From Alphaproteobacteria bacterium (GTDB taxonomy: Bacteria; Pseudomonadota; Alphaproteobacteria; Rhodobacterales; Rhodobacteraceae), in assembly GCA_030424865.1 (NCBI GenBank), contig JAUHVR010000010.1, positions 62,001 to 126,000 of the forward strand: a DNA stretch of 64,000 nt, in the 5' to 3' direction. Made by a program: the position numbers and the translations under genes. Below are positions 25,364-40,995 of this stretch, one piece after another (position 1 is the first letter of the stretch; every line of letters begins with the position of its first letter). The notes beneath the pieces are model-generated. The model worked only from the letters and a program-made list of their open reading frames with translations. It was not told where the DNA came from and did not search any database.

Positions 25364-25813
25364 ATGACCCGATACACCAAAGACCCTGAGGCCATCGCCC
25401 GCCTGTCGCCGGAAGAATACTACGTGACACAGGAATCGGGCACCGAGCGGCCCGGGACCGGGGCGCTGTTGGGCAACAAGGCGCCCGGGATCTATGTGGA
25501 CATTGTCAGCGGCGAGCCGCTGTTTGCCAGCGCGGACAAATATGAAAGCGGTTGCGGCTGGCCGTCGTTCACCAAACCGATCGAGGCGGCGCATGTGACA
25601 GAGCATCGCGATCTGACCATGGGGATGATCCGGACCGAGGTCCGGTCCAAGCATGGCGACAGCCACTTGGGGCATGTGTTCCCGGATGGCCCCCGGGATC
25701 GCGGCGGGCTGCGGTATTGCATCAACTCGGCCTCGCTGCGCTTTGTGCACCGTGATGACATGGAGGCCGAGGGCTATGGCGATTACCTTGATCAAGTGGA
25801 GGATGTGGCATGA
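25364..25813 (+). CDS. msrB: peptide-methionine (R)-S-oxide reductase
   Basis: A 149-residue cytoplasmic enzyme that reduces the R form of methionine sulfoxide in proteins. The signatures [29 protein letters not shown] and [11 protein letters not shown] are present, with the catalytic Cys in the last. The CxxC zinc pairs of many MsrB proteins are absent (VSGEPLF where CxxC is usual), so this is the zinc-free form. AAGGAGGAGA precedes the ATG. msrA follows with a four-base overlap, so the two are translated together. Confidence 0.95.
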
Positions 25814-26316
25814 CTGAACGCGCTGTTCTGGCGGGGGGCTGTTTCTGGGGGATGCAGGATCTGATCCGAAAGTTGCCCGGTGTTGAACGCACCCGCGTGG
25901 GCTATACCGGGGGGGACGTGCCCAATGCGACCTATCGCAACCATGGCACCCATGCCGAGGGGATCGAGATTTTCTTTGACCCCGACCGCATCAGCTATCG
26001 GCGGATCCTGGAGGTGTTCTTTCAGATCCACGACCCGACCACGTTGAACCGGCAGGGGAACGACCTGGGGATGAGCTATCGCTCGGCGATCTATTTTGTC
26101 GATGACGCGCAGAAGGCCTGCGCAGAGGAAACCATTGCCGACGTGAATGCCTCGGGCCTCTGGCCGGGACCGGTGGTGACCGAGGTGGAACCGGTGGGCG
26201 ATTTCTGGGAGGCCGAGCCCGAGCATCAGGATTACCTGGAGCGGTTCCCAAACGGCTATACCTGTCATTTCCCGCGCCCCGATTGGGTGCTGCCCAAACG
26301 GGACGCGGCAGAGTGA
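25810..26316 (+). CDS. msrA: peptide-methionine (S)-S-oxide reductase
   Basis: A 168-residue enzyme that reduces the S form of methionine sulfoxide. The catalytic motif GGCFWG is at residues 9-14, followed by [21 protein letters not shown] and YRSAIYF, all family signatures. It overlaps msrB by ATGA, so the pair covers both sulfoxide stereoisomers from one transcript. Absence of a signal peptide places it in the cytoplasm. Confidence 0.96.
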
Positions 26317-26317
26317 T

Positions 26318-27688
26318 TTAGTCCTTAAAGCAGAAGGTGTTGCCTGAACTGGTGTTCAGGTAGCACCGGCTGTTGCTCACGGGCTTGTCGGTGAACAGCA
26401 GTTTCGCCTCAAGCCCGTTGATGCGGTCGCCGTTGACCGTGTCTTCGATCACCGTCTTCGCGCCCGAGGGCCAGACGAACTCATCCAGCTGGTATTCGTG
26501 CAACGTGCTGCTGATCTTGCGGGTGGTCAGGCGGGTGCAGGGGTCTTCGTCGAGCTTGTCCTGGCCCCGGAACACGTAACAGGTCGTTTGCGCAGAGCTA
26601 CGGTCGATCGGAGAGAGCTCGGCCACATCCCGTGTGGCGATTTGCTGATCCGAGGGGCGTACGAGGTCCGCCAGCTTGGTGCGCGGGTCGAAGAACAGCG
26701 CGGGGCTGGCGTCAAAGCCAAGACCATCCTGACCGATGCGGATATTGCCGAAGGACCCGAAATAGCTGTAGGCGCCAACTTCGGTCGCGGCGGTTACATC
26801 CGCCTCGAGCCTGATGTTGCAGGACAGCGCACCTTCCTGGCCATAACCCTCTTGTCGGGCCTCGACGCCGTCGCTGGTGCGTGTCACCTGAACCTCCCAT
26901 CCCCACCGATCGGTGGGTTCTGGGTCAAAGCCGAACCCGTTGGTCGAGATCCGGTCGCCTTCCCAGTTGTAGAAACTGTTGCAGGCGTTCGAGACGGCCA
27001 GCGGTGTGATCTCGGCCGGGTGATAGGTGCCGACAACAGGGATCAGCCAGCGGCCCGCCTTGTGGACCGTGTCGATGTAGAAGAAATCCTCGGGCGGGGT
27101 TTGCAGCATCTTCGACACCAGTGTGTGCGAGACTTTCATGTCGCCCGAGCGTTCCAGCAAATCGCCGATGCCCCGTACCGCGATCTTGTAGGCGATGTTC
27201 ACCTGCTCTTCGGTGTAGCTGCCACCGGGCACCACAAGTGACGGGGCGTGGAACCCCAACTTGCCCCCGGCATGCAGCTTTCTGTTGGCCACAAGACCGG
27301 CGTCGCTTTCGGTGCTGACGGACCCGGCCATGAAGATCACCGAACAGGCGCTCAGGCAGGTCGCGTCGCGGGGGATGGCAGTGCCGAGCTTGCCCGAGAT
27401 CAGATCGGCGATGCGGATCGCCTCGGCAAAACTGCCGCCCTGACTGTCGAGGCACAGCCGCTGGCCGTGGTATTCGTCGGAATAGAGTGGATCATAGGCA
27501 TTGGCGGACCCGTAAATCCGGATCAGCAGGGCCTTTAGCCGGTCGGCATCGCCTTTTTCGATCACACCGCTGAGGCGGACAAAGCAGTGCATGTAGGGAT
27601 CAGAATGCCGCTCGAGTGTGGCGGCTGTGGCCGTGGTGGCGGGCGCAAGAAAGAGCAACGCAAGCAAGGCGAAGAGACGAGTGTACAT
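26318..27688 (-). CDS. secreted ClpP/crotonase-fold protein (COG3904-like), 456 aa
   Basis: A signal peptide covers residues 1-23. Residues about 30-190 have the pattern of periplasmic ClpP-like proteins: CLDSQGGSFAEAIRIADLI (80-98), CLSACSVIFMAG (111-122) with Ser113 at the nucleophile position, and LGFHAP with His147. The oxyanion GG is at 84-85. This suggests a serine-protease-like or scaffold role in the periplasm. The C-terminal 250 residues, with at least seven Cys, are not recognised. GGGAGGT lies nine bases before the ATG. The gene shares the leftward strand with the sulfatase but starts about 70 bp beyond its stop. It is close to the caspase array, though a functional tie is only inferred. 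Confidence 0.7.
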   Translation of the reverse strand: MYTRLFALLALLFLAPATTATAATLERHSDPYMHCFVRLSGVIEKGDADRLKALLIRIYGSANAYDPLYSDEYHGQRLCLDSQGGSFAEAIRIADLISGKLGTAIPRDATCLSACSVIFMAGSVSTESDAGLVANRKLHAGGKLGFHAPSLVVPGGSYTEEQVNIAYKIAVRGIGDLLERSGDMKVSHTLVSKMLQTPPEDFFYIDTVHKAGRWLIPVVGTYHPAEITPLAVSNACNSFYNWEGDRISTNGFGFDPEPTDRWGWEVQVTRTSDGVEARQEGYGQEGALSCNIRLEADVTAATEVGAYSYFGSFGNIRIGQDGLGFDASPALFFDPRTKLADLVRPSDQQIATRDVAELSPIDRSSAQTTCYVFRGQDKLDEDPCTRLTTRKISSTLHEYQLDEFVWPSGAKTVIEDTVNGDRINGLEAKLLFTDKPVSNSRCYLNTSSGNTFCFKD

Positions 27689-27754: not shown

Positions 27755-29362
27755 TCAACCCTCGGCGTTCGTCAACCCCCAGGCGGTCAGAAGGCGTGGC
27801 AATGCCTGATCCCAATCCAGCACGCCGACGCGATCCGCCCAGTCCTGATAGTGCGCGATCAGGTCGGCCTCGTGCCGCCCGCCCCGCCCGGCGAGGTTGT
27901 TCAGTTCGGTCCGATCAGCCTCCATGTCGTAAAGCTCCCAGGGGGTGCCGTGACGGCGGACCAGTTTGAAGCGACCGGCGCGGATGGCGGCGTTGCCTTC
28001 GTGTTCAAAGAAGATGGGCGCGTCGCGTGACCAATCCTGGCCGGTCAACAGGGGCAGCAGCGACTCGCCTTCGCCGGGTTGGATCGGTGTGCCGCGCACC
28101 TCGGTCTGATAGTCCGCGCCCGCGACCTCCAGCAGCGTCGGCAGGATGTCGACCACATGCGCGGGCTCATGCAGGTTTGCCCCCGGCTTCAGCCCGTTCG
28201 GCCAATGGGCGATCATCGGGGTCGAGACGCCGCCTTCGTGCACGTAGTGCTTGAACAGACGGAACGGCGCGTTCGAGACATTGGCCCAGGGCTTGTCATA
28301 GCTTTGATAGGTCAGCGCATCGCCGGGCATGACGTCAGGGCGGTTGCCCATGGTGATGCAGCGGCCATCGTGGGTTTGGTCGGGAAAGAACTTGGCCCAG
28401 CCGTCCTCGGCCATGAACTCGGCACAGCCGCCATTGTCGGACAGGAACAGGATCAGCGTGTCCTCGTATTGGCCCAGCCGTTTCAGGGCCTCGATGAACC
28501 GCCCGATGCTTTGGTCCATCCGGTCGACCATGGCCGCATAGGTCGCCATCTTGCGCGCCTCCCAGTCGGTGTGCTGCTCGGCCTCCCAGGGATGCACCTG
28601 GTCGTCACGCGGCGCGATCTGCCAGCTGCGCTGGAACAGGTCCAGGGCGTTCATCTCTTCGTGCCTCGCGGTGCGGGTGGCGTCCCAGCCCTTGGCATAG
28701 GTGCCGTCGTAGCGGGCGATGTCCTCGGGCGGTGCGTGCAGGGGCCAGTGCGGCGCGGTATGCGCGAGGTAGAGGAAGAACGGCACCTCATCCGCCACGG
28801 CCTCTTCCACCATGCCGATGGCCTTGTCGGTGATCGCCTCGGTGAAATAGAAATCATCCGCGAAATCCGTCACGCGGGTGTCGTCATCCAGCACGTAGTG
28901 CGGCGAAAAGAAATGCGTGACCCCGTCGACGATCCCGTAAAAGCGGTCAAACCCCCGCTGGCGCGGGGTCGGGTGCTGGGGCGCGCCGACCTGCCAACTG
29001 TCGACCTCGCGCGCCATGAAGTCCCCGCCGACATGCCACTTGCCCGACATCAGCGTCCGGTATCCAGCGGTGCGCAGATGTTCGGCAATCGTTGCGCTGT
29101 CGTCGCGCAGGAAGCCGCGATAGGCGGGTGTGCCCAGATCCGCACCCATGTGGCCGATCCCGGCCTGATGCGGATAGAGCCCGGTCAAGAGCGAGGCGCG
29201 GGTCGGGCAGCAGCGGGCGCAGTTGTACATCTGGGTCATCAGGCGGCCCTCACGCGCAAGACCATCAAGGACCGGCGTCCTGATCTCGGACCCGGTGCAG
29301 CCAAGATCGGCAAATCCCAGGTCATCGGCCAGGATCACCACGATGTTGGGGCGTCTTGTCAT
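27755..29362 (-). CDS. sulfatase (arylsulfatase type)
   Basis: A 535-residue alkaline phosphatase-superfamily hydrolase that cleaves sulfate esters. NIVVILADDLGFADLGC holds the metal-binding D13/D14, and CCPTRASLLTG (51-61) is the C-x-P-x-R signature, with C51 to be converted to formylglycine. MSGKWHVGG and LSDNGG are further metal and sulfate contacts. No signal peptide is seen, so it appears cytoplasmic. The ATG at 29362 is supported by GAGG upstream and directly begins the first strand; the open frame further upstream is chance. The leftward promoter must lie in the 102-bp gap before the first caspase gene. The substrate is unknown; marine relatives act on polysaccharides or choline sulfate. 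Confidence 0.9.
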   Translation of the reverse strand: MTRRPNIVVILADDLGFADLGCTGSEIRTPVLDGLAREGRLMTQMYNCARCCPTRASLLTGLYPHQAGIGHMGADLGTPAYRGFLRDDSATIAEHLRTAGYRTLMSGKWHVGGDFMAREVDSWQVGAPQHPTPRQRGFDRFYGIVDGVTHFFSPHYVLDDDTRVTDFADDFYFTEAITDKAIGMVEEAVADEVPFFLYLAHTAPHWPLHAPPEDIARYDGTYAKGWDATRTARHEEMNALDLFQRSWQIAPRDDQVHPWEAEQHTDWEARKMATYAAMVDRMDQSIGRFIEALKRLGQYEDTLILFLSDNGGCAEFMAEDGWAKFFPDQTHDGRCITMGNRPDVMPGDALTYQSYDKPWANVSNAPFRLFKHYVHEGGVSTPMIAHWPNGLKPGANLHEPAHVVDILPTLLEVAGADYQTEVRGTPIQPGEGESLLPLLTGQDWSRDAPIFFEHEGNAAIRAGRFKLVRRHGTPWELYDMEADRTELNNLAGRGGRHEADLIAHYQDWADRVGVLDWDQALPRLLTAWGLTNAEG

Positions 29363-29464: not shown

Positions 29465-32230
29465 ATGCGCGTTTTCTTGCTGCTTTTGGCTTTGGTTTTT
29501 TCGACGGGTCCCGCGTTGGCCGCGAAATACGCCCTTGTGATGGGCAACGCCGACTACGAGTCGTTGTCGGACCTGCAGAACACCCACTACGACGCCCAGG
29601 CCTATGGGGAAACCTTCCAAGACCTTGGGTACGAGGTCACCTTTCTGAAGGACCTCGACTTCGACAGTACGCTAGAGGCTCTTGATACGTTTTACGCGCA
29701 GATCAATCCGGGCGACGAGGTGGTGTTTGTCTTTTCCGGCCACGGCTGGAGCGATGGCAAGGTCAACTACCTGATCCCCACGGATGCCCCAAAGCAGGCG
29801 CGGGATTCGCTGCTCAAGCGCAAGACGATTGCCCTGAAGAACGGCTATGACGGCGTGCTTGATGAATTGGCGGCTCTGGGCGCCGGGCTGACCGTCGCGG
29901 TGATCGATGCCTGTCGCAACAATCCTTTCGAGCCTCCGCAGGGCCGCAAATCGCTTGCGCTGGGCCGCGGGCTTGCGCCCATTCAGGCCCAAACCGGCAC
30001 CCTTGTGATTTTTTCGGCCGGGGTCGGACAAGAGGCTTTGGACAGGTTGCCCGACGATCCGGGTGATCAGCGGCTTTCGGTTTTCACACGGTCCTTCATC
30101 CCGCATCTGAAGTCAGGCCTTTACGTTGAACGGGCGGTGGCCGAGGCGCAAAAGGAAACTGCCGCATTGGCGCGCCGGGCCGGCGGGCACACCCAGACCC
30201 CTGCGATCTATGACGAGGCGCTGGGCGACACATGCCTGAGCGGGTCCTGCGTTTATCAGGTCACGCCCGTTGTCCAACAGCAGCAACAGCTGGCGGTTGC
30301 GCAACCCAGCCAATGTGACCTGCTGTATCAAGAGGCCAAGGCCTCGCGCGAGTGTTTCGAGTTCGAGGGGTACATCGACGTCTGCGCCGACCACACCTTC
30401 GCCCCGATCGCGCGCCGCTTTATCGCGCGGCAATGCACGGTGGACACCGCGGCCATTCAGTCCGGGGATCCGGTGAAAGAGGTGGCACCGGTCGTGCAAC
30501 AGCAGGTCCAGGTCAAACCCGTCGTCCAATCCCAGTCGGCGCAAGGGACAGAGACCCCCCAAACCAAGGCGCTGGCCGCGTATTTCGCGCTTCAGGACAA
30601 GATCGAGGTCAAGGAAAAATCCCTTGACCTTGCGCGGAAGGCGTCGCTGTCGCATCGGGTGAGCTCGCTCGAGGGCGACCTTCAGAAACTGCGTGCCGAG
30701 CGGGCCGCGCTGTCGACCGGAGAGTTTGGCGACGTGCTGGCGCAGGTGGAAGAGGCGCAGCGGACCCTCGACAGCAAGCAGCGGTCGCTTGGGCTGGCAC
30801 GGCAGTTTTCCAACCCCTCGCGGGTCAACCAGCTTGAGCTTGAAGTGGCCAGCCTGCGGTCCGGCTTGCAGGCGCTCCGCTCGGGCGAGATGGATGCGCT
30901 TGCCGATCTGGCAAGGCAGGGTGAAGTCTCGCAGGCGATCTTGCAGCAGATGCAAGAGGTTCAGGGCAGTCTCGACGACAAGCAGCGGTCCTTGACGCTT
31001 GCGCGCCAGTTCTCGTCGGCGGTGCGGGTCCGCGAACTGGAACAAGAGGTCGCGGCCCTGCAGGCGGTGTTGCGCTCTTTGCAGTCGGGCGAACCGGTCG
31101 CGGAAACCAAAGTCGCGCTTGAAACCGGTGGGCCAGGCCATGCCGAAACGGTTGTAAACAGCGAGGCAGACGCAAGGGTACAGGGTTGCGATCGCCTTGC
31201 CGTCGATCAGAACCATCCCGACATTCTGAGCGGCAAGATCACGGTCGCGTCCGTTGCCTTCGAAGACATTCAGCCGGACCGCGCCATTGCCCAATGCAAA
31301 CAGGCCGTCGCGGCGTTTCCGGATCACGGGCGCAGCCATGCCAATCTGTCACGCGCATATGGGCGCAAAGGCGACTTTGCCAATATGCGGGTGCATGCGG
31401 AACGGGGCGATGCCCTGGGGGATCTCTATGCCACCCGCGCTCTGGGTTACAGCATGCTGAAAGGCGACCGCCTGCCCAAGGATGTGACCCGAGGAATAAG
31501 TTATCTGAACCGTGCGGCCTCGGCCGGGTATCCAATGGCGCAAAACGACATGGGCAATGCCTATCGGTACGGCGAAGGGGTCGAGAAAGACATCAAGCTA
31601 GCGGCCACCTGGTTCAGCGTTGCGTCCGCGCAGGGGAACTACCTGGGCCAGTACAACATGGCCAGCCTTCTGCGCAAAGGCGAAGGCGTGCCCGAGAACA
31701 TGGTTGAAGCGCGCCGCTTGTACAAGCTGTCCGCCGACACGGGATATGATTATGCCCAGAACATGTACGGTTGGGTGCTGTACTTTGGCGAAGGCGGGGC
31801 CGCTGACCCCACGGAAGGGCTGCGTTGGTTCCGCATGGCGGCGGCCCAGGGCAACAGGCTGGCGATGCACAATCTGGGTCGGGCCTATGCCGAGGGCAAG
31901 GGCGTCACCCGGAACGACAGCACCAGCGCGAATTGGTACGAACAGGCGGCCGCCCAGGGATACAGCTATTCGCAGGAACAACTGGGCTATATCTACGAAA
32001 CGGGCCGTGGTGTGACCGCCGACCCCTCAAAAGCGGCCAGCTTCTATTACGCGGCGCTCAAGCAAGGGCGCAACTGGGTGGTCGATCGGCAAAGCAACCA
32101 ATGGGATCGCGAGACGGCCAAGGCAATGCAGCGGTTGCTGAAGGCAGACGGGTTCTACAGGGGCGCGATTGACGGCATCATGGGCAGCGGTGCCCGCACG
32201 GCGATGACCGCCGCGCTGAACGCGGGGTGA
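29465..32230 (+). CDS. secreted caspase-family protein 1: caspase, coiled coil, Sel1 repeats, PG-binding-like end
   Basis: A 921-residue protein with a signal peptide (1-20). The caspase p20-like domain spans about 21-250, with His93 in FSGHGWS and Cys150 in VIDACRNNPF. A six-Cys module (about 275-345) follows. Next come three related coiled-coil blocks (about 385-550) sharing KQRSLxLARQFS-type segments, a TPR-like helper segment (HPDILSGK to FPDHGRS), about six Sel1 repeats (about 670-880), and a C-terminal QRLLKADGFYRGAIDGIMGSG peptidoglycan-binding-like end. The ATG at 29465 has AAGGGGAGA upstream. It should act in the periplasm. It leads a head-to-tail array and is directly joined to the next gene (TGATG). 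Protease activity is inferred from the intact dyad. Confidence 0.87.
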   Translation: MRVFLLLLALVFSTGPALAAKYALVMGNADYESLSDLQNTHYDAQAYGETFQDLGYEVTFLKDLDFDSTLEALDTFYAQINPGDEVVFVFSGHGWSDGKVNYLIPTDAPKQARDSLLKRKTIALKNGYDGVLDELAALGAGLTVAVIDACRNNPFEPPQGRKSLALGRGLAPIQAQTGTLVIFSAGVGQEALDRLPDDPGDQRLSVFTRSFIPHLKSGLYVERAVAEAQKETAALARRAGGHTQTPAIYDEALGDTCLSGSCVYQVTPVVQQQQQLAVAQPSQCDLLYQEAKASRECFEFEGYIDVCADHTFAPIARRFIARQCTVDTAAIQSGDPVKEVAPVVQQQVQVKPVVQSQSAQGTETPQTKALAAYFALQDKIEVKEKSLDLARKASLSHRVSSLEGDLQKLRAERAALSTGEFGDVLAQVEEAQRTLDSKQRSLGLARQFSNPSRVNQLELEVASLRSGLQALRSGEMDALADLARQGEVSQAILQQMQEVQGSLDDKQRSLTLARQFSSAVRVRELEQEVAALQAVLRSLQSGEPVAETKVALETGGPGHAETVVNSEADARVQGCDRLAVDQNHPDILSGKITVASVAFEDIQPDRAIAQCKQAVAAFPDHGRSHANLSRAYGRKGDFANMRVHAERGDALGDLYATRALGYSMLKGDRLPKDVTRGISYLNRAASAGYPMAQNDMGNAYRYGEGVEKDIKLAATWFSVASAQGNYLGQYNMASLLRKGEGVPENMVEARRLYKLSADTGYDYAQNMYGWVLYFGEGGAADPTEGLRWFRMAAAQGNRLAMHNLGRAYAEGKGVTRNDSTSANWYEQAAAQGYSYSQEQLGYIYETGRGVTADPSKAASFYYAALKQGRNWVVDRQSNQWDRETAKAMQRLLKADGFYRGAIDGIMGSGARTAMTAALNAG

Positions 32231-34002
32231 TGCACATGCAAAGACTTCTGACAGCCTGCCTGATGTTGCTTGCCGCCCCTGCCGCGGCCGACAAATTGGC
32301 CTTCATCCTGGGCAACGCGGCTTACGAAGAGCTGTCGAGCCTCGACAACACCCTGTATGACGCCGCGGCCTATCGCGACACCTTTCGCGATCTGGGGTAC
32401 GAGGTGACATTCCACGAAAACCTGGCGCTCGAGCCGATGCTGTCGGCCTTTGACACCTTCCTTGCCTCGGTCAATCCGGGCGACGAGGTCGCGTTCATCT
32501 ACGCCGGCCACGGCTGGAGCGACGGGCAGTTCAACTACCTGATCCCCACCGATGCGCCCAAGAAGGGGCGCGACCGGATGCTGGTTCGCCATTCACTGGC
32601 GCTGAAGAACGGGCATGACGGGGTGCTGGACGAATTGGCCCGGGCGGATGCCTCGCTGTCGCTGGCGATCATCGACGCCTGCCGCGACAATCCCTTTGAA
32701 CCCAAGGAAGGCACGCGGTCTTCGGGTATGAGCCGCGGGCTGGCGCCGATCGATCCGCTGAAGGGCACCTTTGTCGTCTTCTCGGCGGGCGCCGGGCAAC
32801 AGGCGCTGGACCGTTTGCCGACGGACCCGCCAGACCAGCGCCTGTCGGTCTTCACACGCACCTTCCTGCCGCATCTGCAGTCGGGGCTGTATCTGGAACA
32901 GGCGATTTCCAAGGCGCAGGTCGAAACGGCAGCGCTGGCGCGGCAGTTCGACGGCCATCTGCAGCATCCGGCCTACTACGACGAAACGCTGGGCGACACC
33001 TGCATCGCGCCGTCCTGTGGGGATCAGACCGCGGTGCTGGACCGCTGTGACCAGCTGTACGAGGCGGCGCAGGCCGCCGATGCCTGTTTTGCCTATGACG
33101 GCTATGTCTCGACCTGTCCGACGCATCTTTTCGCGCCGTTTGCCACCAGCTACCTGGAGAGAAATTGCAAGCCAACTCTGCCTGATCCGGTCAAGCCGGT
33201 TGATCCGGTGGTCGCGCCGGACCCACCCAAGGAAGACCCCAAGCCGCCGGTGGTCGTGGCAATTGATCCCGAGGCCAACAACGACGTGCAGCTGTGCGAT
33301 GCGCTGGCCTTGGACAAATGGCACCCGGACGCGCGAAGCGGGGTGTCCAAGAGCGCTGGAATTGCCTTTACCAAGATGGATGCCTCCCGCGCCATTTCTG
33401 CCTGTCAGGCCGCCAAGGCGGCCTTTCCGGATCACCTGCGCACGCGCGTGAACCTGGGACGCGCATATCATTCGGGCAAACGCTATGCCGAGGCGCTGAC
33501 GGAATACGATGTGGCCATCGCGGGTGGCGACATGGCGGCGCTGTATCTGTCGGGCATTCTCTACGCCACGGGTCGTGGCACGACACGCGACGACAGCAAG
33601 GCGCTGGACCTGTACCAGCGTGGGACGGACCTGGGCTATGCGCCGACAATCAATGCGTTGGGCACGATGTATTTCAATGGCCGGGGCGTGACCAAGGATG
33701 TGAAACGAGCCACCGAGCTGTTCCGGCAAGCCTCGGACATGGGGTTTGCGCAGGCTCACTTCAATTATGCCCTGCAGTTGGAAAAGAACCCGGCGACGCG
33801 CCAACAGGCCGCAGAACTTTTCTTTCTCAGTTTGCAGCAAGGGCGCGATTTCGCAGCAAAACGTGACACCCGCAGCTGGAACCGCGATACGGCAAAGGCC
33901 CTGCAGCTTCTTTTGCGGGACGAAGGGCTGTATACTGGGGCCATTGATGGAATCATGGGATCAGGTGGCAAAGCAGCGATGCGCGCGCTAATTCCAGATT
34001 GA
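32230..34002 (+). CDS. secreted caspase-family protein 2: caspase, Sel1 repeats, PG-binding-like end
   Basis: A 590-residue paralogue of its neighbours. Signal peptide 1-20; caspase domain with His94 in YAGHGWS and Cys151 in IIDACRDNPF. The six-Cys module is present (GDTCIAPSC, then CDQLY to LERNC). A Pro-rich linker (KPVDPVVAPDPPKEDPKPP) follows, then the TPR-like helper segment, about two and a half Sel1 repeats, and the C-terminal LLLRDEGLYTGAIDGIMGSG element. The coiled-coil blocks of protein 1 are absent. The start codon overlaps the stop of the previous gene (TGATG), indicating coupled translation; an ATG six bases later is also possible. About 160 bp of non-coding DNA separates it from protein 3. 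Confidence 0.87.
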   Translation: MHMQRLLTACLMLLAAPAAADKLAFILGNAAYEELSSLDNTLYDAAAYRDTFRDLGYEVTFHENLALEPMLSAFDTFLASVNPGDEVAFIYAGHGWSDGQFNYLIPTDAPKKGRDRMLVRHSLALKNGHDGVLDELARADASLSLAIIDACRDNPFEPKEGTRSSGMSRGLAPIDPLKGTFVVFSAGAGQQALDRLPTDPPDQRLSVFTRTFLPHLQSGLYLEQAISKAQVETAALARQFDGHLQHPAYYDETLGDTCIAPSCGDQTAVLDRCDQLYEAAQAADACFAYDGYVSTCPTHLFAPFATSYLERNCKPTLPDPVKPVDPVVAPDPPKEDPKPPVVVAIDPEANNDVQLCDALALDKWHPDARSGVSKSAGIAFTKMDASRAISACQAAKAAFPDHLRTRVNLGRAYHSGKRYAEALTEYDVAIAGGDMAALYLSGILYATGRGTTRDDSKALDLYQRGTDLGYAPTINALGTMYFNGRGVTKDVKRATELFRQASDMGFAQAHFNYALQLEKNPATRQQAAELFFLSLQQGRDFAAKRDTRSWNRDTAKALQLLLRDEGLYTGAIDGIMGSGGKAAMRALIPD

Positions 34003-34166
34003 GAGTGTGTTTGAAGGAACAACGCCCGGTTGCCTGGGGGCGGATTAGTCGCCGAGGTCGGGAAATTCGGACTTGAAATAATGCACTACGTGACGAGACA
34101 ATTGACCAAAGCGCGGGTGACCAAACCCAGCCCACTCGTCGCGAAACCGAACAAGGGGGGTGTGTC

Positions 34167-36950
34167 ATGAGAATTCTTGTTATGATGTTGGCAATGCTGG
34201 CGGCGGCGCCGGCTATTGCGGGCAAAAAGGCCTTTATCCTTGGGAACGCCGGGTACGAAGAACTGTCGGTCCTTCGCAACACCCATGCCGATGCCCAGGC
34301 CTATCAGCAGGCCTTTGAGCAGCTGGGATACGAGGTCAGCTATCACGAAGATCTGGACTACGGCGGCACGATTGATGCGCTGGACGGATTCCTGAACCAG
34401 ATCGACAATGGTGACGAGGTGGTCTTTGTCTATTCGGGCCATGGCTGGAGCGACGGTCAGACCAACTATCTGATCCCCGTTGACGCGCCCAAAAAGGGCA
34501 GCGACCGGGTTCTGGCGCGGCAATCGCTGGCGCTGAAGAATGGTTACAACGGCATCCTGGACGAGATCGAGCGCATGGGCGCGGGTCTGACCGTTGCCGT
34601 GATCGACGCCTGCCGCAACAACCCGTTTGAACCGCCCGAAGGCCGTCGCTCGATGGCCATGAGCCGCGGTCTGGCGCCGGTCAAGGCGCAGACGGGCACC
34701 TTTGTGATCTTTTCAGCCGGTGAAGGGCAGGAAGCACTTGACCGTCTGCCTGACGATCCTTCGGATCAGAAACTCTCGGTCTTTACCCGGACCTTCCTCC
34801 CGCACCTGACCTCGGGCTTCTACCTGGAGCAGGCGATTTCGAAGGCGCAGGTGGAAACGGCAGCGCTGGCGCGCAAGGCCGGTGGCCACATGCAGCACCC
34901 GGCTTACTATGACCAGACGCTGGGCGATACCTGCATGTCCGGCAGCTGTGGTGTGACTCCGGTAATGCAACCGATCGAACCTGTGATCGAAGAGCCCAAG
35001 GTGGTGGCGCCGGTCGCGCCGCGCGCCCTGAGCCAATGCGACGCGCTGTATGCCGAGGCCAAGGAATCGGGCGCGTGCTTCGGCTATGAAGCCTATGCCG
35101 AGATCTGCAGCGATCACGTCTACATCTCGTTGGCCAAGGCCTTTATGAAGCGGCGCTGCGAGGCGGTGGCGACGGTTGATCCGAAACCGGTTGACCCGGT
35201 TGTGGTTGATCCCAAGCCGGTCCAGGTGGCTGGCGCAGACGCCAGCCCTCTGGTGCGGGCCTGTGATGATGAAGCCACGGCAACGGATCACCCGGATATC
35301 CTGAGCCTCAAGATCCGCTCGAACGGTCGCGCGTTCAGCGACATCTCGACGGGCACTGCCATCTCGGCCTGCCGGAATGCCATCAGCTCGTTCCCGGATC
35401 ATGCGCGCAGCCTGTCTGCGTTGGGTCGGGCCTACGAAGCCGACGGCGATTTCGGTCAGGCCAAGACCTATTACGAAAAGGCGATCAACCTTGGCGACAT
35501 GGTTGCGGTGAACCGTCTTGGTGCCATGTACGCCTATGGTGACGGCGTCACCAAGGACGAGCGTCGCGCGGTCGAGCTGTATCGCAAGTCCGCAGATGGC
35601 GGCTATCCGACGGCGGCCAACAATCTGGGCTGGATGTACCAGAACGGCAATGGTGTGCCTGCCAGCGATTCCGAAGCGGTCTTCTGGTACCGCAAGGGCG
35701 CCGAGGCCGGAAACGGTCGTGCGCAGGTCAATCTTGGCTGGATGTACGAAAACGGCCGGGGCGTTCTGCAGGACGACCGCGAAGCCGCACGCTGGTACAA
35801 GACCGCAGCCGAGGCCGGCAACGACATCGGTCAAAGCAATCTTGGCTGGATGTACCAGTATGGCCGTGGCGTCGTGCAGGACGACTTCGAGGCGGTGCGC
35901 TGGTATCGCGCTGCGGCGGATCAGGGCAACGACCGCGCCCTGGCCAACCTGGGGTGGATGTACGAAAACGGCCGGGGTGTTGCGCAAAGCGATGTCGAAG
36001 CCGTGCGCTACTACCGCGAGGCTGCGGATCTGGGCAATGACGTGGCCCAGGCCAACCTTGGCTGGATGTATGAAAACGGCCGAGGCGTTGTGCGCGACTA
36101 CAAACAGGCGGTCGACTGGTACCGCAGGGCCGCAGATCAGGGTCTGGCTCGGGCCGAGACCAACCTGGGCTACATGTACCAGCATGGACTTGGCGTAGGC
36201 AAAAGCGAAACCGAGGCGGTCCGCTGGTACCGCAAGGCCGCTGACAAGGGCCATGCGCAGGGTCAGTTCAACCTGGGTGTCATGTATGAACGGGGCCAGG
36301 GCATCCGCCAGAACTATTCCGAGGCCATGGCCTGGTACAAGAAGGCGGCCAACAACGGCAATGCCTCGGCGATGTACAACCTGGGCCTGATGTACCGCAA
36401 CTCGATGGGCGTTTCGCAGGACGACGTCGAAGCGCTGCGCTGGTACGAAAAAGGCGCCGCGGCGGGCCACTCGGGGGCGCAGTTCAACGCCGGGGTCTTC
36501 TACGACTCGGGCATTGGCACCTCGCCGAACGAGAAGAAGGCGTTCGACTACTACACGGCGGCCGCCAATCAGGGCCACTCGGGCGCGCAGCACAACCTGG
36601 GCATCCTGTACCGGGACGGCAAAGGTGTGTCGAAGAGCAACTCGGAAGCCATCCGCCTGTTCAAGGAAGCGGTCGCGCAAGGCGAGCCCTATGCGCACAA
36701 CAGCCTGGGCTGGATGTACGAAAACGCTGTCGGGGTCCCCAAGGATCCGCGCGAGGCAGCGTATTTCTACTATGAGGCGCTGAAGCTGGGACGCCCCTGG
36801 GCAACCACACGCTCGCAAGGTGGTTGGGATCGCGAAACCGCGCGCGAGTTGCAGCGCCTGCTGAAGCAGGACGGCTACTATACCGGCGCCATTGACGGCA
36901 TCATGGGGGCCGGAGCGGTGCGGGCCATGAAGTCGGCCATGGGCAGCTAA
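34167..36950 (+). CDS. secreted caspase-family protein 3: caspase, twelve Sel1 repeats, PG-binding-like end
   Basis: A 927-residue paralogue. Signal peptide 1-19; caspase domain with His92 in YSGHGWS and Cys149 in VIDACRNNPF. The six-Cys module (GDTCMSGSC, then CDALY to MKRRC) and the TPR-like helper segment follow. From about residue 448 there are twelve near-regular 36-residue Sel1 repeats (NLGWMYENGRGV and variants), then LLKQDGYYTGAIDGIMGAG at the end. Long Sel1 solenoids bind proteins or peptidoglycan-associated partners. GGGGGGTGTG precedes the ATG. This is the longest adaptor of the four, and the repeats are alike enough at DNA level to recombine. Periplasmic location is inferred from the signal peptide. 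Confidence 0.88.
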   Translation: MRILVMMLAMLAAAPAIAGKKAFILGNAGYEELSVLRNTHADAQAYQQAFEQLGYEVSYHEDLDYGGTIDALDGFLNQIDNGDEVVFVYSGHGWSDGQTNYLIPVDAPKKGSDRVLARQSLALKNGYNGILDEIERMGAGLTVAVIDACRNNPFEPPEGRRSMAMSRGLAPVKAQTGTFVIFSAGEGQEALDRLPDDPSDQKLSVFTRTFLPHLTSGFYLEQAISKAQVETAALARKAGGHMQHPAYYDQTLGDTCMSGSCGVTPVMQPIEPVIEEPKVVAPVAPRALSQCDALYAEAKESGACFGYEAYAEICSDHVYISLAKAFMKRRCEAVATVDPKPVDPVVVDPKPVQVAGADASPLVRACDDEATATDHPDILSLKIRSNGRAFSDISTGTAISACRNAISSFPDHARSLSALGRAYEADGDFGQAKTYYEKAINLGDMVAVNRLGAMYAYGDGVTKDERRAVELYRKSADGGYPTAANNLGWMYQNGNGVPASDSEAVFWYRKGAEAGNGRAQVNLGWMYENGRGVLQDDREAARWYKTAAEAGNDIGQSNLGWMYQYGRGVVQDDFEAVRWYRAAADQGNDRALANLGWMYENGRGVAQSDVEAVRYYREAADLGNDVAQANLGWMYENGRGVVRDYKQAVDWYRRAADQGLARAETNLGYMYQHGLGVGKSETEAVRWYRKAADKGHAQGQFNLGVMYERGQGIRQNYSEAMAWYKKAANNGNASAMYNLGLMYRNSMGVSQDDVEALRWYEKGAAAGHSGAQFNAGVFYDSGIGTSPNEKKAFDYYTAAANQGHSGAQHNLGILYRDGKGVSKSNSEAIRLFKEAVAQGEPYAHNSLGWMYENAVGVPKDPREAAYFYYEALKLGRPWATTRSQGGWDRETARELQRLLKQDGYYTGAIDGIMGAGAVRAMKSAMGS
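35506..36801 (+). repeat. tandem 108-bp coding repeats (Sel1 units)
   Basis: Twelve consecutive units of 36 codons inside caspase protein 3. Several adjacent units share long stretches such as AACCTTGGCTGGATGTA and GAAAACGGCCG, so the array should be prone to unequal exchange and copy-number change. It is protein-coding and not a CRISPR array: no spacers, no constant repeat. Confidence 0.8.
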
Positions 36951-37020
36951 GGCCACATGTCCTTGTGCGCGGTCGGATCCCTTTGATCTGGATTTCGGCC
37001 ACGCAGACAGCCATGGGCGG

Positions 37021-37215
37021 ACATATGATCCCCTTCAGGATCGTTGGTACACTCAGTCAAACGCCCGCGCCTATGCGCGGGCGTTTGAGATTCCGGGCTA
37101 CAGCGTCACTTGTGTCCACGATCTGACATTGAAGCAGATGCCAGACGGGCAGAGCAACGATCTGTTGCGGGTGGATGCCCCATTGCGCGGACTTGAACCG
37201 CAACCCAGGCGGCAA
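37021..37215 (+). pseudogene. remnant of a fifth caspase-family gene, catalytic His region deleted
   Basis: Translated in frame from 37021, the sequence aligns without gaps to the N-terminal caspase region of protein 3. TYDPLQD with SNARAYARAFEIPGYSV matches GYEELSV with ADAQAYQQAFEQLGYEV, about 14 of 35 identical. After the DL pair, about 27 residues are missing, including the His-bearing FSGHGWS strand. The match then resumes: PDGQSNDLLRVDAPLRG against SDGQTNYLIPVDAPKKG, about 10 of 17. No start codon, signal peptide or Cys region remains. Gene death by internal deletion after duplication is the simplest reading. Confidence 0.72.
37057..37088. other. perfect 14-bp hairpin with 4-nt loop
   Basis: TCAAACGCCCGCGC at 37057-37070 pairs completely with 37075-37088. 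There is no T-run on either side, so it is not a normal terminator. It lies within the decayed caspase fragment, over codons for NARAYARAF, and may be chance, or may block read-through from protein 3 into protein 4. Confidence 0.5.
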
Positions 37216-37437
37216 ATCGCGCAGTCACTGCCCATCAACGCGTCGAAAGACCGGCCATGTTTGCAGCCGGAGCTGCTGGGCGTGAAACCCGGCGTCCTCG
37301 GCGCCGAACTTGTGCGGCACAGAATAGGTTCAACCACAGTTTTGAAAGTTTTGCCCGGTGGCGCCGATTTTCTGTTAGACGTCGAGATACAAGAACAGTG
37401 GCTGGTCACGGCCACGAAAGGAACCGGGAGGACTGCA

Positions 37438-38883
37438 ATGCACATCTTTCGATGGGCCACGGCCATGGTGGCATGCGTGCTTGCAACAGCGGCCGCCGCT
37501 GAGAAACACGCTTTTGTGCTGGGAAATGCAGCCTACACGGATCTGTCTGCCCTGCAAAACACGCTGGATGATGCGCGTGCCTATTCCGAAGCTTTCAAAG
37601 AGCTGGGCTACAAGGTCTCGAGCCACAGCAACCTGGGGCTGGATGACATGGAAGATGCCATCGCGACCTTTGTCGCCGGGATCGATCCGGGCGACGAGGT
37701 GATTTTTGTCTTCTCGGGCCACGGCTGGAGCAATGGGTCGGTCAACTACCTGATCCCGACGGATGCGCCCGCGCAGGGCAGCGACCGCAAACTGGCGCGC
37801 AACTCGATCGCGCTGCGCAATGGCGATGACGGGGTGCTTGACGACCTCGAACGCTCGGGCGCGGGGTTGACGGTTGCGGTGATCGACGCGTGTCGGAACA
37901 ACCCTTTCAAACCCCGACCAGGCACCAAGTCAGCCGCAGGCATGACGCGCGGCCTGGCGCCTGTGACCGCACCACAGGGCAGTTTCGTGATTTTTTCGGC
38001 GGGTGAGGGGCAAGAGGCGCTGGACCGTCTGCCCGACGATCCGGCGGACCAGAAGCTGAGTGTCTTTACCCGAACTTTCCTGCCGCATCTGAAATCCGGG
38101 GTTTTTCTGGAAACGGCGATCTCGAATGCCCAGGTGGAAACCGCGGCTCTTGCCCGCAAAGTGGGTGGACACCTTCAGCACCCGGCCTATTACGATCAGA
38201 CTCTGGGCCAGACCTGCCTGACGAATGGGTGTCAGGTCGCTGTCGCCCAGCCGAAGGCTTCGGCCTGTGATCTTCTGTATTCAGAATCCAAATCCATCGC
38301 TTCATGTGGTGTTTACAAGGCCTATCTCGACACCTGCGCCCAGCACGCATTGGCCCCGATCGTGCGTGGTTTGGCAGACGAAAAGCAATGCTTTGCACGC
38401 GCCGAGACCACTGCCGAGGTGCCCGAGATCAAAGTGGCCAAGGTCAAGAACCCGTCTGTCCAAGTGGTTGCAAAGACGCTTTATGAATCGTCGAATCTGT
38501 CCATGCGGGGGGTCTATTCCGCCCCGGACAGCCAGAACGCCACGCGCTTTACCGGCGGTGTTCTGTCATTGCATGCGACGGATCGTTCGGGGTGGTACCA
38601 ATTGGCCGACGATACCGGTTTTGTCAAATTGACCAATAAGGAACAACAGGGTCTTGTCACAGCTGCTTTGAAGGACGCGCCCGTCGAAAAACTGGCCGGC
38701 ACTGACGGAAAGCACGCCTGGCAACGTGTTTCGGTCAACATGTCGCCCATCCGCGCAGCGCCAAACGACTCGGCGCGCCTGATCCGCTTCGCCGGGGGGC
38801 AGTTTTTGTTGGGGGCGCACGCGGGATCTGGCTGGTACGAGCTGCGCAACGAGCCAGGCGCTTTTCTCAGGGTTGGTGATTGA
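37438..38883 (+). CDS. secreted caspase-family protein 4: caspase with two SH3-like repeats
   Basis: A 481-residue paralogue with signal peptide (1-21) and caspase domain carrying His95 in FSGHGWS and Cys152 in VIDACRNNPF. The six-Cys module is kept (GQTCLTNGC, then CDLLY to EKQC). In place of Sel1 repeats and the GAIDGIMG end, residues about 340-481 hold two SH3-like repeats: SNLSMRGVYSAP to GWYQLAD and SVNMSPIRAAP to GWYELRN. SH3-like domains in periplasmic proteins usually bind cell wall or partner proteins. GGGAGGA before the ATG at 37438 fixes the start. It therefore keeps the protease but has swapped the targeting half. Confidence 0.87.
   Translation: MHIFRWATAMVACVLATAAAAEKHAFVLGNAAYTDLSALQNTLDDARAYSEAFKELGYKVSSHSNLGLDDMEDAIATFVAGIDPGDEVIFVFSGHGWSNGSVNYLIPTDAPAQGSDRKLARNSIALRNGDDGVLDDLERSGAGLTVAVIDACRNNPFKPRPGTKSAAGMTRGLAPVTAPQGSFVIFSAGEGQEALDRLPDDPADQKLSVFTRTFLPHLKSGVFLETAISNAQVETAALARKVGGHLQHPAYYDQTLGQTCLTNGCQVAVAQPKASACDLLYSESKSIASCGVYKAYLDTCAQHALAPIVRGLADEKQCFARAETTAEVPEIKVAKVKNPSVQVVAKTLYESSNLSMRGVYSAPDSQNATRFTGGVLSLHATDRSGWYQLADDTGFVKLTNKEQQGLVTAALKDAPVEKLAGTDGKHAWQRVSVNMSPIRAAPNDSARLIRFAGGQFLLGAHAGSGWYELRNEPGAFLRVGD

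Positions 38884-38955: not shown

Positions 38956-40995
<2,040 letters not shown>

Follow-up and report, generated by a model that had tools for sequence, protein, structure and literature searches.

Caspase homologues of bacteria have been surveyed before. In its accessible part, one survey describes them as carrying Sel1, WD40, FGE-sulfatase and peptidoglycan (PG)-binding partner domains, as starting with a hydrophobic segment that is likely a signal peptide, and as occurring in operons with up to three caspase genes, reported in 2012 with Alphaproteobacteria included (PMC3501461). Their function is an open question, with much discussion of cell death, in the accessible parts of that survey and of a second paper (PMC3501461, PMC5756287). 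An exported caspase of Bradyrhizobium, A5ECX2, ends in two C-terminal YARHG domains which, according to the accessible part of the source, its authors hypothesised to bind peptidoglycan (PMC3355149). Here, 64,000 nucleotides from a marine alphaproteobacterium of the Rhodobacteraceae (contig JAUHVR010000010.1, positions 62,001 to 126,000; hereafter the window) were analysed, in which positions 29465-38883 hold four open frames arranged head to tail on the + strand and encoding caspase-family proteins, C1 to C4. A previous reading of the letters alone (the sequence-only reading) had described four consecutive rightward genes of this family, and Peptidase_C14 is found in all four. That reading understated what was known by speaking of single caspase-like proteins, in view of the operons with up to three caspases already described (PMC3501461).

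On balance, we are inclined to see C1 to C4 as exported caspase-family proteases of the cell envelope, addressed by their tails and activated by clustering. Grounded in the sequence are the architecture, the catalytic dyad, one S1 position occupied by an acidic residue, the predicted fold, a conserved locus and one clear copying event between heads. The four genes are as follows.

29465 to 32230, + strand: C1, 921 amino acids; putative signal peptide, caspase head, Cys module, long Q/V/P linker, coiled coil, six Sel1 stretches, PG-binding-like end.
32230 to 34002, + strand: C2, 588 amino acids from the ATG at 32236; putative signal peptide, caspase head, Cys module, P-rich linker, TPR and two Sel1 stretches, PG-binding-like end.
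34167 to 36950, + strand: C3, 927 amino acids; putative signal peptide, caspase head, Cys module, TPR, twelve Sel1 stretches, PG-binding-like end.
37438 to 38883, + strand: C4, 481 amino acids; putative signal peptide, caspase head, Cys module, orphan tail with two repeats.

Peptidase_C14 (PF00656) matched C1 to C4 with E-values of 3.7e-23, 2.8e-20, 3.9e-22 and 4.1e-22 in Pfam, and the caspase domains scored 73-83 bits against a curated cut-off of 21.4. Matches to PHROGs and NCBIfam models were either weak or due to Sel1; one of them was an EACC1-type caspase model with C3 (32 bits, cut-off 140). The intact His and Cys claimed by the sequence-only reading are present in all four proteins, at 93/150, 94/151, 92/149 and 95/152 (the numbering of C2 assuming the ATG at 32230), and the motif around the catalytic Cys is DACR. 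An array of chance or mis-called frames was rejected on the strength of the four Pfam matches and the conserved locus. The heads (residues 21-260) are 64-70% identical in pairs, the tails (from residue 331, gaps counted as differences) 6-40%.

To place the head structurally, the best 80 of 235 relatives were taken, and 61 of these 80 heads from outside the window, picked by eye, were aligned with the four of the array. The C3 head modelled from these 65 rows reached a mean predicted local distance difference test (pLDDT) score of 89.9. With this model, the best Foldseek match was the paracaspase MALT1 (E 1.2e-17), and VIA-align, whose matches cover the caspase domain only (residues 1-242), also ranked MALT1 first (Z 27.2 over 217 residues, 2.8 Å; best other caspase 23.0). 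The head sequence profile, compared with the PDB, agreed (MALT1 4.6e-20, caspase-1 3.5e-11). MALT1 is thus the closest solved fold to the modelled heads. Its S1 pocket, which receives Arg at P1, is lined by Asp365, Asp462 and Glu500 according to the accessible part of PMC4357240. At the position aligned with Asp365, 63 of the 65 heads have D and the other two E; at that of Asp462, a residue lying inside the search motif, D is found in all 65. Because acidic residues occupy these two positions, C1 to C4 are predicted to be likely specific for Arg or Lys at P1.

An export-like N-terminus was recognised in all four array proteins by a simple in-house rule, and in 71 of 89 heads as compared with 7 of 36 control frames. 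The signal peptides proposed by the sequence-only reading therefore stand as export-like N-termini, called by a rule that is also positive in those seven control frames. The shared Cys-rich module that it had noticed is indeed found in all four proteins, after the caspase domain, as four cysteines spaced C-x12-C-x9-C-x(16-17)-C, and forms three helices in the head model. When a profile of these modules (n=25) was aligned with one of cysteine-free 'YPxG' post-caspase modules (n=17), HHalign gave a probability of 95.2 (E 2.6e-8), while 50 column shuffles reached at most 4.8. Because of this match and its control, the Cys module is best described from its sequence as a cysteine-stapled form of a common helical post-caspase module. 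A caspase gene on contig C16 carries three copies of it in a row. If the catalytic Cys is discounted, and likewise a single Cys in each of the signal peptides of C2 and C4, then C1 to C4 contain 8, 8, 8 and 6 cysteines; these counts fit what would be expected of disulfides formed in an oxidising compartment.

The tails differ in the manner foreseen for C1, C2 and C3, in which Pfam recognised 6, 2 and 12 Sel1 stretches. These three proteins share a closing segment with the motif GAIDGIMG, which had been likened to a PG-binding end. As a single sequence, only the end of C3 matched PG_binding_1, at 22.0 bits just below the cut-off of 23, and C1 and C2 gave no match at E<=0.01. A 21-row profile of such ends, by contrast, found PG-binding modules in the PDB, namely those of SleB (1.8e-9), SltB3 (1.4e-7) and another lytic transglycosylase (4.9e-6), so that, judged by profile, the ends of C1 to C3 resemble PG-binding domains. 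SleB is a spore cortex-lytic enzyme and SltB3 a transglycosylase. As for C4, its tail had been read as two SH3-like repeats. The two repeats are real: their score of 80, taken over every cut, was reached by none of 500 shuffles, which were scored over every third cut and rose to 45 at most. SH3 as their identity found no support, with no Pfam family at E<=0.5, a probability of 0.3 in comparison with caspase-borne SH3 repeats, and a single-sequence model of pLDDT 33.6.

The array stands at a conserved locus, with the following features beside or within it.

25810 to 26316, + strand: MsrA-type methionine sulfoxide reductase.
26318 to 27688, - strand: exported-looking protein with a very weak relationship to ClpP (16.1 bits, cut-off 120), without a Pfam family at E<=1e-5.
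27758 to 29362: sulfatase of the window locus.
37021 to 37203, + strand: degenerate remnant of a fifth caspase head in the C3-C4 spacer; main match 37021-37149, with a weak second stretch to 37203.
38968 to 40995, + strand: flavin mononucleotide (FMN) oxidoreductase/Pyr_redox protein.

Related genomes were searched for the same gene order, as had been suggested, and it recurs in G001, the other genome of the window's genus that was compared. G001 is metagenome-assembled, and its array contig corresponds to a contig of the metagenome-assembled genome ALOHA_ZT_57. A four-gene array is bounded there, as in the window, by MsrA and the 26318-27688 protein at one end and by the FMN oxidoreductase at the other; the sulfatase has no match at that locus. 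C1, C2 and C3 are orthologous in both genomes, with head/tail identities of 85/44, 85/62 and 94/82% and non-synonymous divergence (dN) of 0.108/0.446, 0.104/0.265 and 0.040/0.100. Both genomes also keep a decayed caspase head before gene 4, scoring 18.4 bits in the window and 15.9 bits in G001 with the head profile, as compared with a top score of 3.8 bits among 1559 reported shuffled segments. Between the two genomes, the spacer ahead of gene 4 is 79% identical over 297 aligned columns.

Gene 4 of G001 gives the clearest trace of exchange between neighbours. It shares 1261 bases with gene 1 of the same array, with 4 mismatches and no gaps, in a repeat that begins 149 bp upstream of the start codon, runs through signal peptide, caspase domain and Cys module, and ends inside the linker. 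The heads of the two proteins are 100% identical and their tails 29%. Beyond the repeat, gene 4 has a PDZ match and a Sel1- and PG-binding-like end 33-41% identical to the ends of C1-C3. Gene 1 was probably the donor, because C1 of the window continues past the breakpoint as C1 of G001 does. This copy, together with similar patterns in other loci, supports the earlier idea of a family, probably exported, that diversifies by tail swapping on a shared head.

Among those loci, a caspase pair of Afifellaceae shows a synonymous divergence (dS) of 0.16 in the head and 0.71 in the tail, with an 88%-identical stretch that continues into the tail, which leaves its boundary blurred. Three genomes, G000, G051 and G090, share a cluster in which a metacaspase (DSCH) is accompanied by two caspases, one LprI-tailed and one SH3-tailed, and G001 has a similar caspase pair; several genera of the family are represented. 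These lie at L009:2765-7780, L132:6808-11779, L135:3008-8185 and L151:1703-5190, the last examined for the caspase pair only. Tail types were set by pattern, with Pfam confirmation for L009, and tails of one type are recognisable across genomes (SH3 48-78%, LprI 41-52%); one G001 gene with an apparently LprI-type tail fell under 'other', and is thus in the head tree and outside the identity table. In G051, the SH3 and LprI heads are 84% identical to each other and 61-67% to those of other genomes, with a tree support of 99/100. In G090 the corresponding values are 74% and 61-71%, and the tree leaves the fork without resolution. For the window's genus, the tree places each head with its counterpart of the same tail type (G000 with G001) and unites all four in a group with support 90/96. 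Concerted evolution of SH3 and LprI heads is hence well supported from sequence in one genome, weakly indicated in a second and, in the window's genus, not recent. Independent gain of similar SH3 and LprI tails might also account for part of the pattern.

These comparisons bear on the possibility that C1 to C4 are ordinary ancient tandem duplicates, their heads held alike by purifying selection and their tails evolving fast, with no active copying. The window heads are, after all, only 64-70% identical, and the head tree joins C1, C2 and C3 each to its G001 orthologue and not to one another. In this tree, single genes of other genera are placed next to the C1 and C3 heads, and the SH3 and LprI heads of the window's genus pair by type rather than by genome. 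Four array heads as an exclusive clade were rejected on the same tree, in which C2 and C4 have no resolved position. A repeat of 1261 bases with 4 mismatches, 149 bp of it lying ahead of the start codon, is beyond what selection on the protein can explain, however, and such selection hardly explains the low head dS of the Afifellaceae pair or the grouping of the G051 heads. We regard simple duplication as possible, if rather doubtful.

The breadth of tails on this kind of head was assessed in 70 of the 89 head proteins, leaving aside 3 fragments, 1 duplicate and 15 proteins of Comamonadaceae/Burkholderiales with no sequence past the head. Among the first 25 of 83 Pfam families, Sel1 was found in 23 proteins, PG_binding_1 in 19, LprI in 5, WD40 in 3 and NADase_transloc in 3. 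Rarer tails, with one or two examples each, are PDZ, solute-binding-protein, NosD/beta-helix, FGE-sulfatase and cyclophilin.

Several individual genes deserve mention. Phaeobacter sp. J2-8 has this type of caspase head joined to periplasmic solute-binding proteins of two kinds, SBP_bac_8 (L057:9992-12070) and SBP_bac_5 (L079:9995-12667), and the window genome has a head joined to a cyclophilin-type prolyl isomerase (L020:4526-5935). A sister-genome caspase with WD40-like repeats (L062:5298-7121) has no in-frame signal-like start and is possibly frameshifted. Caspases with PG_binding_1 and C-type-lectin-like tails occur at L010:2331-4466 and L011:2729-6331 (Lectin_C E 0.018 and 1.7e-4 in the two scanned); the two at L011 are adjacent and 87% identical in the head and 55% in the tail. 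In Limnohabitans planktonicus, a long direct-repeat array with a period of ~101 bp (L127:18013-19127) lies several kb from a caspase gene.

From these features we infer export, activity, specificity, wall binding, trigger and substrates of C1 to C4. In the favoured explanation, they would be Sec-exported, cysteine-stapled enzymes of MALT1-like fold acting in the periplasm, probably on Arg/Lys at P1, with the same kind of catalytic head in each and a tail that sets the place of action and the switch. The Sel1/TPR arrays of C1 to C3, one with a coiled coil, and their PG-binding-like ends would tether the head to the wall and to partner proteins; C4 would use its orphan repeat domain. Clustering of heads would then activate the protease. 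Tandem duplication with occasional head copying between neighbours would keep the enzyme similar while tails diverge or are replaced. The idea of the tail as an address rests on sequence, and that of a clustering trigger is proposed by analogy with animal caspases and paracaspases as treated in the accessible part of PMC5756287. A cascade among the four is possible, and nothing in the sequence requires it; heads so alike would argue for one shared specificity at several addresses at least as well. A wider proposal, tentative and in our judgement unlikely, is a Roseobacter-type envelope caspase repertoire working like animal induced-proximity signalling: heads would be kept alike by gene conversion within a genome and gathered by interchangeable sensor tails (wall-binding, Sel1, PDZ, solute-binding protein, lectin-like, cyclophilin, LprI, SH3), each periplasmic signal directing one common Arg/Lys cleavage to a site of its own.

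Exported heads might also act outside the cell. Release against competitors or hosts, for instance in vesicles or by lysis, with tails binding a target receptor or wall, would be served by the export-like N-termini and PG-binding-like ends, by the LprI, WD40 and other binding tails of relatives, and by the lectin-like tails on other caspase genes of the window genome. No secretion-system or immunity gene was recognised, however, among the six of nine neighbouring frames with a Pfam match, and solute-binding-protein and cyclophilin tails fit the cell's own periplasm better; we hold release to be quite improbable. We give still less credence to a periplasmic role for C1 to C4 in regulated cell death or phage defence, whether as executioners or as sensors, which we consider very improbable. 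The caspase fold is as this would require, a role in cell death has been suggested for bacterial caspase homologues in the accessible part of PMC3501461, and the generic caspase model of PADLOC matches C4 at E 2.9e-10 and C1-C3 at 1.1e-5 to 8.6e-4. In both genomes, by contrast, the array is set between the MsrA gene, the unassigned protein and the oxidoreductase, and a Pfam scan of nine neighbouring frames, of which six matched families and three matched nothing, recognised no defence partner (PADLOC was not applied to neighbours). The distinction from cytoplasmic defence caspases drawn by the sequence-only reading is reasonable in this light.

Several points weigh against exported, tail-addressed, clustering-activated proteases. 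The export call comes from a home-made rule and not SignalP, and it is negative for 18 of the 89 heads, of which 15 come from Comamonadaceae/Burkholderiales. The search patterns GHGWS and DACR themselves account in part for the invariance of His, Cys and the Asp462 position across the 65 heads, and the S1 comparison covers two of the three MALT1 positions, Asp365 and Asp462. The profile of PG-binding-like ends also matches OpcA (1.9e-7), a non-wall protein. The C4 tail is without a known domain, and its only relative among 198 family genomes is itself. Between the window and G001, dS is saturated or >1.2, so dN/dS is rough, and the C1 and C2 heads (dN ~0.10) evolve faster than the flanking oxidoreductase (0.043-0.080). 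Finally, the 1261-bp repeat of G001 sits in a metagenome-assembled contig, and a misassembly is possible.

At the level of the locus, C1 and C2 are probably translationally coupled, because the C1 stop and the first ATG of C2 overlap by one base (TGATG, 32228-32232); C2 starts at ATG 32230 or 32236. Gaps of 164 bp and 487 bp separate C2 from C3 and C3 from C4. Promoter-like sites (1 found, 2.0 in shuffles) and terminator-like sites (6 found, 9.7 in shuffles) were not enriched, and no sortase was found in the window genome as an anchoring partner. A hidden Markov model search located 20 PF00656 loci in this genome; at E<=1e-10 it has 18, the most among 100 family genomes searched, 43 of which have any. 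All 17 of its caspase genes examined have an intact dyad and an export-like N-terminus, the latter count being biased upward since starts were partly chosen for a hydrophobic N-terminus and two genes were read from a non-start residue; of the three loci outside the 17, one is cut by a contig end. Of 61 genomes sampled from the family, 3 have array-type heads (E<=1e-60), as do 16 of 292 sampled from the order, in 10 of 113 genera and with up to 7 candidates scored per genome (the window genome included, G001 in neither sample), so that a widespread array is not what these samples show. Among the matches listed, the window genome has at least 7 such heads and others at most 2.

The array and the copied head of the sister genome suggest, from sequence, that one protease activity is sent to several places in the cell envelope. 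Here nature offers a compact set of paralogues, the same kind of enzyme with different tails, in a genome with 20 caspase loci and with a sister that carries a recent head copy; it makes directly testable whether the tail sets address and trigger, and points to the periplasm as the compartment. Compared with the bacterial caspase homologues (metacaspase-like/orthocaspases, PF00656) in the accessible part of PMC3501461, the caspase domain, His/Cys dyad, partner domains and operons are the same, and caspase plus Sel1, caspase plus PG-binding, likely signal peptides and operons of two or three caspases are already known from there. What differs here is the four-gene array with its shared four-Cys module, and the evidence for a head copied between neighbours with different tails; that accessible part mentions neither. 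The four-gene array, the stapled-module origin and head copying did not turn up in the open-access literature searched. With MALT1, C1 to C4 share the closest fold and sequence, DxCR at the catalytic Cys and the acidic Asp365 position, and differ in having an export-like N-terminus and wall-type tails and no death or Ig domain found (Pfam, E<=0.01); according to the accessible part of PMC5756287, DxCR is not paracaspase-specific, being present in many prokaryotic homologues, and prokaryotic p20-only homologues were not grouped with paracaspases in the tree. Bradyrhizobium A5ECX2 likewise has a signal peptide, a caspase domain and a tail hypothesised to bind peptidoglycan, the tail itself being different, and neither an array nor head copying is described in the accessible part of PMC3355149. 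With polymorphic toxin systems, as presented in the accessible part of PMC3482391, the array shares a constant part joined to variable C-terminal parts made by recombination; in C1 to C4, by contrast, it is the putative enzyme that stays constant, and what varies resembles a binding module.

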